In this document: in pieces, positions 5,100-34,380 of the stretch
Layout: every line of letters starts with the position of its first letter
Numbering within the stretch: the stretch's first letter is position 1
IMG/VR virus record: IMGVR_UViG_3300003323_001309
Location: 1 to 40,441 of that record
Direction: 5' to 3' (one strand)
Source: a virus
Length of the DNA: 40,441 nucleotides
The notes under the pieces: model-generated
What the model was told of the DNA's origin: nothing
Databases searched by the model: none
The model's input: the letters and a program-made list of their open reading frames with translations, nothing else
Made by a program: the position numbers and the translations under genes

Positions 5100-5145
5100 T
5101 TATCCACATTCTTGTGGATAAGTCTGTTGATAACATTGTTGATAA
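5100..5145. repeat. DnaA-box cluster with 12-bp period, site 1
   Basis: A perfect DnaA box TTATCCACA (5100-5108) faces its inverse TGTGGATAA (5113-5121) across 4 bases, and two variant boxes TGTTGATAA follow at 5125-5133 and 5137-5145. The three same-strand boxes start exactly 12 bp apart. The 21 bp from 5113 to 5133 recur identically at 34360-34380. The site lies in the 204-bp gap between divergent genes, ahead of the patatin gene. It could be a DnaA- or initiator-binding site used as a secondary origin, a titration site, or an operator for the flanking genes. Confidence 0.75.
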
Positions 5146-26888: not shown

Positions 26889-27221
26889 TTATCTTATGGA
26901 GCTGGATTCATATTTTTGGAAAATATCAAACGATAACCATTTCCCTTGAGTCCTATGGGAATCTTCATTATGAATAACAAATAAATCCTCCTTAGTAGAG
27001 CAAGGAACTTGTACAGATAAATCAGGTGTAGGAATAGGAGGATATTTGAATTTTCTTTCTTCTCCTTCCATACTTTTCGAAACTTTTTCCCTATACTTTT
27101 CAATTCTATTTTTTGCTTCATCTAAGTTAGAAGAGATAATAACGATAGATAGAATTTCTAAACTAAAATCCTCAGTTATTTTATATATGTTATTGAATAT
27201 ATATAAGTATTTATTATCCAT
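26889..27221 (-). CDS. Small protein of unknown function, first of the leftward early genes
   Basis: The 110-residue product has a beta-rich N-terminus (YLYIFNNIYKITEDFSLEIL) and ends with a polar segment containing KWLSFDIFQKYESSS. AGAAAG precedes the ATG. It is the first gene leftward of the regulatory region 27242-27534, so it probably belongs to early transcription. Family not recognised. Confidence 0.55.
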   Translation of the reverse strand: MDNKYLYIFNNIYKITEDFSLEILSIVIISSNLDEAKNRIEKYREKVSKSMEGEERKFKYPPIPTPDLSVQVPCSTKEDLFVIHNEDSHRTQGKWLSFDIFQKYESSSIR

Positions 27222-27241
27222 TTTTTTATTTTCTTTCTCAA

Positions 27242-27281
27242 ATTATATAAAAAGAAAGCGCTGGATTATACCAAACGCTTT
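27242..27281. promoter_or_regulatory. Hairpin element A (ATTATATAAAAA plus AAAGCG/CGCTTT stem)
   Basis: ATTATATAAAAA (27242-27253) is followed by the arms AAAGCG (27255-27260) and CGCTTT (27276-27281) around a loop holding GGATTATACC. A close relative with changed but still pairing arms lies at 29297-29333. On the minus strand the stem is followed by CTTTTTATATAAT, which could act as a terminator or as the -10 region of the leftward early promoter. No typical -35 is visible. Confidence 0.5.
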
Positions 27282-27293
27282 AAGTTTACAGGG

Positions 27294-27312
27294 AGAGATT
27301 ATTGCAATCTCT
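27294..27312. promoter_or_regulatory. Operator-like dyad AGAGATT-N5-AATCTCT
   Basis: Perfect 7-bp arms at 27294-27300 and 27306-27312 lie between the leftward early genes and the replication leader. It could be a binding site for a regulator of the divergent transcripts. No repressor gene was recognised. Confidence 0.4.
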
Positions 27313-27520: not shown

Positions 27521-27534
27521 AAAACTATGTGTAA
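27490..27534 (+). CDS. 14-residue leader peptide of the replication initiator
   Basis: The ORF has the best ribosome site in the region (AGGAGG, 5-base spacer) and encodes MSAYVLIRSFQNYV. Its stop lies 5 bases inside the initiator gene, overlapping the initiator start by 8 bases in another frame. The position and overlap resemble the tap-repA coupling of IncFII plasmids. The peptide sequence itself may not matter. Confidence 0.55.
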   Translation: MSAYVLIRSFQNYV

Positions 27535-28711
27535 CATCATAAATTCCACTAAGTCAATAAGATATTTTCAATCATATAAAATTTCTCACATATTCAATTA
27601 TTTGGAATTTAGATTTAAAGCGAATTTTAAAGGGTTTTGGAAATTTTATGAACCGTGCAAAAAGCATGTTTCTTATAAAGAGGGAGATAGCTTATATGAA
27701 GAAATAGGAATGTGTCGAAAATCCTTTAAAAGATTTTTTTCTAAAATAGGAATTCATTATTCTAGTAAACAGGCCTTCAAGAAGGAATCAGATCCTTTTC
27801 AAGGAAAACTCTACGTTAGTTATTATGACCGAAAAACAAACAAAACTTATTTTTTCAGAAATCATGATCTTCTCAAATCCATTCTTAAAGAGATAGAGGA
27901 AGGTAATTTGAAGTATCATCCTGTGGATAACTTTGTGGATAAATCTGTGGATAATTTTGAACCTAAAGAAAAAAATAAACCTTCCTGGAACGGCCTAAAG
28001 TGGCCTCTCCCTCTTCTCTTCGAGAAGAGACATAATAAAACTCCAATAACGCGCGCGCGCGAGGAGCCTGCGCAGGTATCTTACCCTGATCGAATTGCAG
28101 AACCTCCCAGAGAAGGGGAAAAGATTTTTAAAAAAATGTTTGAATTTTGGATAGCCAAGGTAGAGAAAGAGTTGGTTCCTAGGAAGAGAACCATCCTGAC
28201 AAAATGGCGATGTAAAGAGCTTCGAGAACGGTTTCAGGACTGTTTTGAGGGGAAATGGGACAAATGGAAGGATTATTGCGAGAGGATAGAGGCTAACGAA
28301 TTTCTGATGGGAGGAGGACCTCGAGGATGGAAAGTAAGTTTTGATTGGGCTCTACGTCCTGAAAACATTGACAAGGTGTGGAGGGAGCACTATACAGGAC
28401 AAGGAAAAACAAGAAGTGAGAAGCTAATGCAAGCACAAAAAGAATCACCAGTGACAGAAGAGGAAATTGAAGGAAGTGAGCTTTGGAAGCAGTTTTGCGT
28501 TAAGTTAGCGCAGGTTATTGGCCCCGCAAGTTTTAGAGCATGGTTTAAAGAAGGGGTTCGGCCCGTTGATTTTGAGGGAGAAAATCCGTGTCTTGAATTT
28601 ACCAGCAATTTTAAGTTGCAAACTATTTCAAATAGATATAGATTCCAGTTGGAAAATGTGATGCCACTCTTCCTGGGAAAGAAAAAACTGAAATATGAGG
28701 TTAGGAGATGA
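27527..28711 (+). CDS. Replication initiator with DnaA domain I-like C-terminus
   Basis: This 394-residue protein has three parts. Residues 25-120 are basic and aromatic and look like a winged-helix DNA-binding domain (DSLYEEIGMCRKSFKRFF; KLYVSYYDRKTNKTYFF). Residues about 205-290 follow a phage replication-protein pattern (WKDYCERIEANEFLMGGG, FDWALRPENIDKVWREHY). Residues 314-392 match DnaA domain I (LWKQFCVKLAQVIGPASFRA, WFKEGVRPV, LEFTSNFKLQTISNRY), which in DnaA binds DnaB helicase. Codons 132-143 carry three DnaA boxes. The 3' half is less AT-rich than the rest, hinting at a domain fusion. It would open the origin and load host helicase. No phage helicase or polymerase is seen, so replication depends on host enzymes. 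Confidence 0.78.
   Translation: MCNIINSTKSIRYFQSYKISHIFNYLEFRFKANFKGFWKFYEPCKKHVSYKEGDSLYEEIGMCRKSFKRFFSKIGIHYSSKQAFKKESDPFQGKLYVSYYDRKTNKTYFFRNHDLLKSILKEIEEGNLKYHPVDNFVDKSVDNFEPKEKNKPSWNGLKWPLPLLFEKRHNKTPITRAREEPAQVSYPDRIAEPPREGEKIFKKMFEFWIAKVEKELVPRKRTILTKWRCKELRERFQDCFEGKWDKWKDYCERIEANEFLMGGGPRGWKVSFDWALRPENIDKVWREHYTGQGKTRSEKLMQAQKESPVTEEEIEGSELWKQFCVKLAQVIGPASFRAWFKEGVRPVDFEGENPCLEFTSNFKLQTISNRYRFQLENVMPLFLGKKKLKYEVRR
27922..28061 (+). other. Probable replication origin inside the initiator gene
   Basis: Three perfect TGTGGATAA boxes start at 27922, 27934 and 27946, an exact 12-bp period that also encodes VDNFVDKSVDN. About 60 bp downstream is a perfect 8-bp hairpin (28011-28018 with 28022-28029, loop TTC), then an alternating CGCGCGCGCGCG tract (28050-28061), exceptional in this AT-rich DNA. 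Iterated boxes inside the initiator gene parallel the lambda origin in gene O. The boxes are the E. coli-type DnaA box, so host DnaA or the initiator itself could bind. Confidence 0.65.
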
Positions 28712-28986: not shown

Positions 28987-29169
28987 TTACCTCAAAAATC
29001 TTTCTTCTTCAGCTATCTGATAACTCTTAATCTTTACTTCTAATTCTTTAATAAGAATTTCTAATTTTTGTTCAACGAGGGTTGTCGCTGTGCAATTATG
29101 AATTTTTCTTAATTCTTGCAAAAGCTGTTTAACTTTTTCGAATTGCATCAAAATGATTTTTGGTGTCAT
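28987..29169 (-). CDS. Small helical protein of unknown function
   Basis: The 60-residue product is helical with heptad leucines (FEKVKQLLQELRKIHN, VEQKLEILIKELEVKIKS), likely a small coiled-coil dimer. The ribosome site is weak. It stands alone on the minus strand between the replication and packaging modules. The DNA upstream (29195-29207) has the small palindrome TCCTAA-T-TTAGGA flanked by two GTTAAATC repeats, which may be its operator. Function unknown. Confidence 0.5.
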   Translation of the reverse strand: MTPKIILMQFEKVKQLLQELRKIHNCTATTLVEQKLEILIKELEVKIKSYQIAEEERFLR

Positions 29170-29296
29170 TAATATCTTTTCTTTCTATTTGTTAAATCCT
29201 AATTTAGGAAAATGTTAAATCTTCATTCTTTTTAAGAAAAATATTTCTTTTATCTTTCAATGTTTTTTATTCTTATTTTTTTAAATCATCTCTCCT

Positions 29297-29333
29297 ATTA
29301 TATAAAAAAATGGCGCGGGATATACCTCGCGCC
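29297..29333. promoter_or_regulatory. Hairpin element B (related to element A)
   Basis: ATTATATAAAAAAA (29297-29310) is followed by arms GGCGCG (29312-29317) and CGCGCC (29328-29333) around a loop with GGATATACC. Compared with element A the arms changed together and still pair. On the minus strand the stem is followed by ATTTTTTTATATAAT (terminator-like). On the plus strand it precedes the packaging operon. Confidence 0.55.
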
Positions 29334-29343
29334 TTTCACACGT

Positions 29344-29451
29344 ATGGAGAATAACTTTAATAATGATTTGAGAAAGAGAAAAAGTTATTCCCAAAAAGAT
29401 ATATATAAGATATATATGAATAAATCAAGAAATAAGAGGAAGAAAATATGA
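29344..29451 (+). CDS. Tiny basic protein (35 residues)
   Basis: The product begins MENNFNNDLRKRKSYSQKDI and ends in a basic tail (NKSRNKRKKI). Its stop overlaps the next start as ATGA, supporting expression. There is no ribosome site ahead of the ATG. An upstream ATG at 29260 would place hairpin B inside the gene and is less likely. Function unknown. Confidence 0.4.
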   Translation: MENNFNNDLRKRKSYSQKDIYKIYMNKSRNKRKKI

Positions 29452-29742: not shown

Positions 29743-30066
29743 ATGAAGTATAATATTGGACATGATAATTTAACTCCTGGAAATCCTACTGGAGGATTAA
29801 GTAAATCAAAGCTTGCAAGAATGGAAGCTATGGCAGCTTTTGGAGAACTTGTTGAGAAAAAACTAGAGAATGCAATTCTTACGTCTCTGGATGACCCTGA
29901 TTTAAAAAATGCTCTTCGCGCTTGTGAACTTATTCTTAAATATACTTGCCCTATTCCAAAAGATACATCTGATGAAAATAAGGAAATGAGTCCATTGAAT
30001 CAAATTTTGCTTGAGAAGATGGCTGAGCTTCAAGAAGAAAACAGAAGGCTTAAATCCAAGCAGTGA
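29743..30066 (+). CDS. Small terminase subunit (probable)
   Basis: The 107-residue protein lies directly upstream of the large terminase and overlaps it by 4 bases (GTGA). It starts MKYNIGHDNLTPGNPTGGLS, a basic Gly/Pro/Asn tail typical of the N-terminus of many small terminases. Then come helices (MEAMAAFGELVEKKLENAIL; LKNALRACELILKYTCP) and a coiled-coil C-terminus (LLEKMAELQEENRRLKSK) suited to oligomerisation. Small terminases form rings that recognise the packaging site. Assignment rests on position, size and composition. Confidence 0.75.
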   Translation: MKYNIGHDNLTPGNPTGGLSKSKLARMEAMAAFGELVEKKLENAILTSLDDPDLKNALRACELILKYTCPIPKDTSDENKEMSPLNQILLEKMAELQEENRRLKSKQ

Positions 30067-31520
30067 AAAATATAACCTTTGACTATGATGATTCATTTAA
30101 ACCCCATCAAAAGCAATTAAGATTTTTTGAGGCTGGTAAATATCATCGTTTCAGATTGGCTTTATGGGGGAATAGAACTGGGAAGACGTTTGGAGTTGGA
30201 AAAGAGCTTTTTTATGATAGCTCTGGAATGTATCCTTCTTGGTGGCCTGGTTATAGATATAGTCGCCCTATTCAAATATATTGTCTTACTGAAAATATAG
30301 ACTTATGTAAAAGGAATCTTGTTCGTCTTTTATTTGAAGGTGATAAGGAAAATAAACCTGCAATTCCTCCTGAATTTGTCATTAGGATGGAACCTAGTCC
30401 TTGTAAAATTCATACTCGATATATTCAACATGTTTCTGGTGGCGAGAGTGTATTTTCTTTTATGTCATATAAAAGTGGCGCTCAAGCTATGCAGGGGTTT
30501 AAGGCCGATAAAGCATTATTTGATGAACGTCCTCCATTGTCGGTTTTTGATGAAATGACTAAGAGGCTTGCATCTTTTGATGGAGAAAAAACTCAGGCTA
30601 TTATTACAACTTGGCCTGAAGGTGGATATACAGATATCGTTCATTATTTTATGAGTGGGACAGAAGAAAATTATATTATGGGTCTGGACGCTGAACGGGA
30701 CTTAAGTAAAAACCCTAAAATAGAAAAGCCTAATAAATTTATTTATTATTCTCATGCATCTTGGGATGACAATCCTTATTTGTCTGATTCTGAGAAAGAA
30801 ATGATGGAATTTTCTACTCCCCCTCATTTATTAGAGGCTAGGAGGTCTGGAATTCCTTACTTTGGGTCAGGAAATGTATTTTATATGCCACAAAGTAAAT
30901 ATATTTGCGATTATATTGAACCTAAAAAACATTATGCTTATTTATTAGCAGTTGATCCTGCTGTGACAGAAAATGGTTTCTGGGGAGCTGTTCTCTTAGC
31001 TTATGATAGAGATATAAAGCCAGGAGGAGTAATTTATGTAATGCAAAATTATTATATGTCAGGAATTTCAAAGTCTCAGCATGCTTTTAACCTTGAAAAA
31101 ATGCTTCCTTTCCCTAGGTGTCCTGTGGTAATTGACCCTGCTGGAGGAGGTGAAGATCAAATTACGCGTCAAGGAATGGCAGATTATCTTTCTAATGAAT
31201 TGAGAATGAATGTCCATAAAGCTAAGAAAGGTAAGGATAGTGTAGAACTTGGTATTACGGTTCTTTGTGAGAAAATGTTAGATGATGGCCTTAAAATTGT
31301 TTATAATTCTAGAGATCATACAGGCTGCGTGAAGTTAATAGAGCAAATTATGCGTTATGCTAGAAACGACAAAAATGAAATTATCAAAGCAAATTTTGAT
31401 CATATTATAGACGCGCTGAGATATGGTGTAACTCATATTGATCTTTCAAAGAAGAAAGATGAGATGCACAGAGAATTTTATCAACACCAAGGTTATCAGG
31501 CGGAGTCATCATGGTATTAA
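30063..31520 (+). CDS. terL: Large terminase subunit (packaging ATPase/nuclease)
   Basis: The 485-residue protein uses a GTG start overlapping the small subunit stop. The ATPase domain has Walker A WGNRTGKT (35-42), Walker B KALFDE (151-156) and the coupling motif ITTWPEGG (181-188). The C-terminal RNase H-like nuclease has Asp298 in LLAVDPA, Asp358 in VVIDPAGGG and Asp450 in FDHIIDALRYG. It pumps DNA into the prohead and cuts it. The length and motif spacing are normal. The ten-base overlap with the portal gene supports operon expression. Confidence 0.95.
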   Translation: MKNITFDYDDSFKPHQKQLRFFEAGKYHRFRLALWGNRTGKTFGVGKELFYDSSGMYPSWWPGYRYSRPIQIYCLTENIDLCKRNLVRLLFEGDKENKPAIPPEFVIRMEPSPCKIHTRYIQHVSGGESVFSFMSYKSGAQAMQGFKADKALFDERPPLSVFDEMTKRLASFDGEKTQAIITTWPEGGYTDIVHYFMSGTEENYIMGLDAERDLSKNPKIEKPNKFIYYSHASWDDNPYLSDSEKEMMEFSTPPHLLEARRSGIPYFGSGNVFYMPQSKYICDYIEPKKHYAYLLAVDPAVTENGFWGAVLLAYDRDIKPGGVIYVMQNYYMSGISKSQHAFNLEKMLPFPRCPVVIDPAGGGEDQITRQGMADYLSNELRMNVHKAKKGKDSVELGITVLCEKMLDDGLKIVYNSRDHTGCVKLIEQIMRYARNDKNEIIKANFDHIIDALRYGVTHIDLSKKKDEMHREFYQHQGYQAESSWY

Positions 31521-34359: not shown

Positions 34360-34380
34360 TGTGGATAAGTCTGTTGATAA
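34360..34380 (+). repeat. DnaA-box pair with 12-bp spacing, site 2
   Basis: TGTGGATAA (34360-34368) and TGTTGATAA (34372-34380) are 12 bp apart. The 21 bp are identical to 5113-5133. They begin 5 bases after the scaffold stop, in the 219-bp gap before the capsid gene. Confidence 0.75.

Follow-up and report, generated by a model that had tools for sequence, protein, structure and literature searches.

We analysed a viral DNA of 40,441 bases (IMG/VR record IMGVR_UViG_3300003323_001309, positions 1–40,441; hereafter the window), in which a replication initiator gene near 27.5 kb contains three DnaA boxes inside its coding sequence. No exact terminal repeat was found in the 40,441-base record, and the record is probably a complete circle because its two ends read through as a single open frame (MGGIFGGDGPEPPVLPPPPPPFKF...). 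The closest terminase to that encoded at 30063–31520 is from a Megaira (Rickettsiales) phage and relatives of the initiator (27527–28711) lie on plasmids of Holosporales and Rickettsiales, which together suggests an alphaproteobacterial endosymbiont as host. The features of the initiator gene and of two further box arrays are listed here, with G001 denoting the relative described below.

27527–28711, + strand: phage replication initiator gene, 394 aa, carrying the array (open reading frame; PHROG; Pfam DnaA_N)
27533–27910, + strand: N-terminal domain, about residues 3–128 (tblastn, alignment)
27922–27930, + strand: DnaA box 1, TGTGGATAA (TTATCCACA on the − strand)
27934–27942, + strand: DnaA box 2, TGTGGATAA
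27946–27954, + strand: DnaA box 3, TGTGGATAA (TGTTGATAA in the relative G001)
28001–28157, + strand: block with unusually few synonymous changes relative to G001 (codon comparison)
28011–28029, no strand assigned: inverted repeat of 8 bp with a 3-nt loop (exact pairing)
28050–28061, no strand assigned: (CG)6 tract, identical in G001
28110–28159, no strand assigned: AT-rich stretch of low stability, candidate unwinding element (stability profile; identity to G001)
28184–28420, + strand: DnaD/O-like helicase-loader domain, residues 220–298 (PHROG)
28475–28657, + strand: DnaA domain I-like C-terminal domain, residues 317–377 (Pfam, AF2 model, fold search)
5100–5145, no strand assigned: second array, intergenic, one inverted box followed by three boxes at 12-bp period
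34360–34380, + strand: third array, intergenic, two boxes with 12-bp period preceding the probable major capsid gene

The array in the initiator gene consists of TGTGGATAA repeated exactly three times at 12-bp spacing (starts 27922, 27934 and 27946) with no mismatch, as the preliminary description had reported, and the superposition of protein and DNA repeats that it proposed is borne out by the reading frame of 27922–27954, in which the boxes are read as VDN/VDK within VDNF/VDKS/VDN. The 9-mers are identical while the spacers between them differ (CTT, ATC). By sequence, the boxes are of perfect consensus, tandem and helically phased, like those of plasmid origins of the P1 and RK2 kind. The window contains the two-box unit TGTKGATAA at 12 bp five times, at 27.9 kb (twice), 5.1 kb (twice) and 34.4 kb (once), compared to none in 100 dinucleotide shuffles. 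Both further arrays of 12-bp period are intergenic, with boxes at 5113, 5125 and 5137 accompanied by an inverted box at 5100, and boxes at 34360 and 34372; since neither array encodes protein, codons alone do not account for the 12-bp period. The 5.1-kb array lies upstream of a patatin-like phospholipase gene in very AT-rich DNA, surrounded by tail and structural genes and far from the replication genes, and two of its boxes are kept in G001 at the same position and with the same sequence. The 34.4-kb pair directly follows a probable scaffold gene, and no box pair was found upstream of the G001 gene that corresponds to the probable major capsid gene.

The N-terminal domain of the initiator is common to plasmid proteins of Bealeia, Methylovorus and Cupriavidus (tblastn), and the loader domain matches PHROG 10469 (E 2.4e-11) and PHROG 345 (E 2.9e-7) as well as PHROG 19658 and 5810. 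The array encodes residues 133–142, placing it in the linker between these two domains and within a stretch predicted as coil (residues 125–194; low-confidence model). An AF2 model of the whole protein was poor (pLDDT 37), and the C-terminal domain was therefore modelled separately (pLDDT 77). The DnaA domain I-like segment noted earlier at the end of the gene was confirmed by a Pfam DnaA_N match across residues 317–377 (E 6.8e-7; 29.3 bits, cut-off 24.6) and by fold searches, in which the best matches of the C-terminal model were DnaA domain I of B. subtilis and H. pylori. Foldseek ranked DnaA domain I at the top (prob 1.00, E 1.3e-3), and VIA-align 2 returned Z 8.3 and 7.9 with rmsd 2.9 and 2.4 over 77–78 residues, the best match being 4tps (Z 8.3, rmsd 2.9 over 78 residues). 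Other KH-like folds followed with Z about 7, among them the DnaB loader DciA. The equivalents of E. coli DnaA Trp6 and Phe46 are kept and that of Glu21 is absent, these three being dimerisation and DnaB-contact positions (review, PMC5448010). Judged by sequence profile and predicted fold, the initiator C-terminus is a true DnaA domain I. A PDB sequence search returned nothing useful, and Rfam gave no match above gathering score.

A Pfam scan of the initiator returned DnaA_N only, and neither the window nor G001 contains a match to DnaA domain IV (Bac_DnaA_C), the part of DnaA that binds DnaA boxes. Because neither phage encodes domain IV, the binder of the boxes is likely to be host DnaA rather than the phage initiator. 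The earlier proposal of a DnaA-like initiator carrying its own box array is thus not supported, as the protein has domain I alone.

The only relative recovered by protein and motif scans across viral and genome contigs was G001 (L119; IMGVR_UViG_3300003321_000988, 37,603 bp), whose initiator is 78% identical, and tblastn and blastn found no relatives among phages. Plasmids searched for initiator relatives gave four distant matches, all without the array, so the array is a feature of this lineage. G001 keeps TGTGGATAA, TGTGGATAA and TGTTGATAA at 12 bp with spacers CTT and GTC, and the change in box 3 is synonymous and remains within TGTKGATAA. The preliminary description had raised the prospect that relatives would keep the VD repeats of the protein and not the boxes; G001 retains both. 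Most of the codons just after the array (27953–27998) carry amino-acid changes in G001. All three valine codons of the array are GTG, which makes up 9% of valine codons in the phage, and GAT makes up 89% of aspartate codons; given the peptide and phage codon usage, three perfect boxes have a probability of P = 1.4e-4. The array DNA, besides the protein, looks to be selected, and conservation of the array form is drawn from two genomes, the window and G001.

Downstream of the array, the hairpin and the (CG)6 tract named in the preliminary description are both present, and the two arms of the hairpin have changed in G001 with pairing kept (CTCTTCTC/GAGAAGAG to CTCTTCTT/AAGAAGAG). Codons over 27911–28156 are 85% identical to G001 (over 60 codons) compared to a mean of 63% in ten compared genes. 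The block with few synonymous changes comprises two runs, 28001–28066 and 28085–28157, and is a candidate for the remainder of an origin. The RuvC-like gene has a block with just as few synonymous differences from G001, so mosaic exchange could contribute to the frozen block, and we dropped the synonymous freeze as sole proof. The stability profile reveals AT-rich DNA at 27940–27979 and 28110–28159 with a GC-rich stretch between, and across 27880–28200 only short two-copy repeats and inverted repeats were found, with no iterons recognised. Outside the gene, similar elements at 27220–27300 and 29275–29350 (77% over 47 nt) flank the initiator; in them a GC-rich dyad, for example GGCGCGGGATATACCTCGCGCC, comes after TATTATATAAAAA, and they are a possible promoter/operator pair. 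The non-coding, AT-rich segment 29164–29318 matches G001 without a difference for about 155 bp, though the initiator is only 78% identical, and the G001 counterpart of this segment, about 162 bp long, is a terminal repeat.

Scanning IMG/VR for three TGTKGATAA at 12 bp returned at least 119 contigs, and a second scan of viral contigs took perfect boxes at free spacing. Consecutive perfect boxes across viral contigs are mainly 11–12 and 21–23 bp apart, the spacing predicted if DnaA molecules sit on the same face of the helix. With host ORFs defined as at least 120 aa and on the same strand as the array, 38 of 125 array clusters among the 12-bp matches listed lie in such an ORF, compared to 2 of 111 at free spacing. 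Boxes are all in the VDN/VDK frame in 39 of the 40 ORF-embedded arrays among the matches listed; one alternative frame is impossible because the box contains TAA in that frame. The array ORFs among the matches listed form 17 clusters, one with 20 members, and many are replication initiators with an N-terminal winged helix. Within this set of listed matches, 14 of 32 array ORFs have a match to the same initiator PHROG, 11 have one to an O-like PHROG, HTH_36 occurs in 13, and a few are clearly spurious or unrelated. For 42 random ORFs from the same contigs, no initiator family appeared among the 25 commonest of 64 families. Ten phage records among the matches listed have the ORF-internal array as the sole array in the record.

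Base composition around the recurring arrays was compared for 18 dereplicated examples among the matches listed. AT content is up by about 0.10 at 60–150 bp downstream and not upstream, with an AT-rich stretch in that interval in 15 of 18 arrays; the P values (Wilcoxon 0.003, permutation 0.0002) are optimistic, by up to about 20-fold, because the interval was picked after the profile was seen. The window and G001 are exceptions to this pattern, with 49–53% AT there. Across 29 units from dereplicated arrays among the matches listed, box letters are fixed except for G/T at one site and the spacer varies. As the arrays were retrieved by box sequence, box conservation is not itself evidence, and the evidence from the scanned arrays is their frame, their host families and their AT profile. 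Two occurrences were observed in other settings. A plasmid gene of Methylocystis parvus, annotated as replication initiator protein A (L241, 2001–2029), has two DnaA boxes at 12 bp that encode its terminal ...RPVDNSVDKL, so this plasmid initiator shows the same arrangement, and Wolbachia phage WO has two perfect DnaA boxes at 12 bp in a baseplate (gpJ-like) gene (L243, 2001–2022), on the strand opposite to that gene.

The array, its frame and the domains of the protein are direct observations, and so are the retention of the array by one relative and the reappearance of the design in initiators of other phages. We favour, with reasonable though not strong confidence, the view that the phage has a replication origin inside the linker-coding part of its own initiator gene, where the array serves for recognition by DnaA. 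Domain IV of host DnaA would contact the three phased boxes, and DnaA and the phage initiator would open nearby AT-rich DNA, for which 27940–27979 and 28110–28159 are the candidates. The DnaD/O-like domain of the initiator would then recruit the host helicase, and the C-terminal DnaA domain I may dock on domain I of box-bound host DnaA, on the helicase, or on both. We infer these steps, with binding, opening and loading modelled on DnaA-box plasmid origins (PMC4980987), lambda and SPP1 (PMC6022878, PMC5499656). Cumulative GC skew, proposed in the preliminary description as a check for an origin at 28 kb, did not single out this site. The raw curve has its minimum at about 27 kb, where gene direction also flips, but no switch at 28 kb was found in skew corrected for strand and amino-acid composition, and at corrected third positions the minus-strand left-arm genes lack a leading-strand signature. 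The raw minimum is explained by gene direction, and GC skew was dropped as proof of a 28-kb origin.

Other roles for the boxes have to be weighed against origin recognition. The boxes might bind host DnaA for regulation or titration, controlling transcription of the initiator or early genes or competing with host oriC, a role that would suit the intergenic arrays just upstream of the patatin and capsid genes and the conservation of the former in G001, and in T5-like phages DnaA boxes lie in the injection-stop region, with a different role (PMC13250531). We judge this unlikely, as ten other phage records among the matches listed have only an ORF-internal array, the AT-rich stretch downstream in most cases among the matches listed is origin-like, and titration needs no location within initiators, which the array ORFs among the matches listed preferentially are. 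The conserved 5.1-kb array might represent an additional DnaA site or indeed the main origin, and a related explanation holds that replication truly starts there, or at the near-identical non-coding block at about 29.2 kb, with the intragenic array as an accessory. Such an arrangement draws on the four boxes at 5.1 kb, one of them inverted, in very AT-rich DNA, on the 155-bp identity at 29164–29318, and on a skew that does not mark 28 kb. However, the first candidate sits among tail and structural genes, the second has no DnaA boxes, and the location within an initiator gene recurs in other phages among the matches listed; an origin elsewhere we likewise regard as unlikely.

The remaining alternatives concern the nature of the repeats themselves. 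Their position within the gene is that of the lambda iterons (PMC6022878), and they might be iterons bound by the phage initiator itself, with the resemblance to DnaA boxes merely being the sequence chosen. The sequence is nonetheless the perfect general DnaA consensus, and unrelated initiators use the same 9-mer although a private specificity would not be common to them, which makes iterons quite improbable. That the repeats arose by chance, or by recent duplication in tandem of a functionless 12-bp unit, is the least credible account and one we consider very improbable: slippage can give tandem 12-mers, but beyond the repeat itself nothing favours it, and the identical 9-mers of the window are separated by differing spacers, the spacers of G001 also differ, a pattern of fixed box and variable spacer holds across the 29 units among the matches listed, and GTG is a rare codon in the phage.

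It is already known that origins can lie inside initiator genes (lambda, SPP1) and that replicons use host DnaA boxes. In the literature searched, which covered few subscription papers, we found no account of phage initiators containing DnaA-box arrays in frame, and the combination of the two known principles as a VDN/VDK array recurring in unrelated phage initiators, accompanied in the window by a C-terminal DnaA domain I, did not turn up there. We suggest tentatively that these phages could form a recurrent, undescribed replicon class in which host DnaA recognises the origin through boxes lying in frame (VDN/VDK) in the initiator linker, and that the initiator of the present lineage has acquired a DnaA domain I through which it would join the DnaA orisome directly. 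If so, many metagenomic phages would carry a self-contained origin readable from sequence, phages with in-frame arrays would be tied to host initiation control, and origins could be found by the simple motif of VDN/VDK repeats with GTG GAT codons. The lineage would also allow one to ask, in a natural system, whether DnaA domain I by itself can recruit a foreign helicase loader to box-bound DnaA.

Comparison with known systems places the locus among several partial parallels. Rickettsial plasmids carry 'DnaA-like' replication genes (PMC3244465), and the Rickettsiales Ac37b plasmid proteins have a related DnaD-like and C-terminal region and probably share with the window an alphaproteobacterial endosymbiont host range; unlike the initiator described here, the Ac37b genes are not phage genes and have no DnaA-box array. 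The plasmid origins of P1, F, RK2 and pSC101 contain DnaA boxes (PMC4980987) that, as proposed here, act for host DnaA together with a replicon-encoded initiator, but those boxes lie in an origin with separate iterons and are not described within the initiator reading frame. In SPP1, oriL lies in gene 38, and the same has been proposed for ORF20 of phage 80alpha (PMC5499656), so that an origin embedded in the replisome-organizer gene would be shared, whereas G38P binds its own origin and a perfect tandem array of DnaA boxes is not part of that description. A similar layout is that of phage lambda, in which ori-lambda lies inside gene O with four iterons and an AT-rich region (PMC6022878, PMC5043065), and the preliminary description's analogy to lambda O is supported by the position of residues 133–142 between domains. 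Both systems have a repeat array inside the initiator coding sequence, between the N-terminal and helicase-side domains, and the AT-rich DNA near the array here, interrupted by a GC-rich stretch, is a candidate counterpart of the lambda AT-rich region. Binding of the repeats by the phage initiator itself, as by lambda O, is doubtful here because the boxes match host DnaA. In lambda, O itself binds the repeats, which are inverted-repeat iterons about 18 bp long, whereas here 9-bp DnaA boxes recur at 12 bp in a gene whose protein ends in a DnaA domain I.
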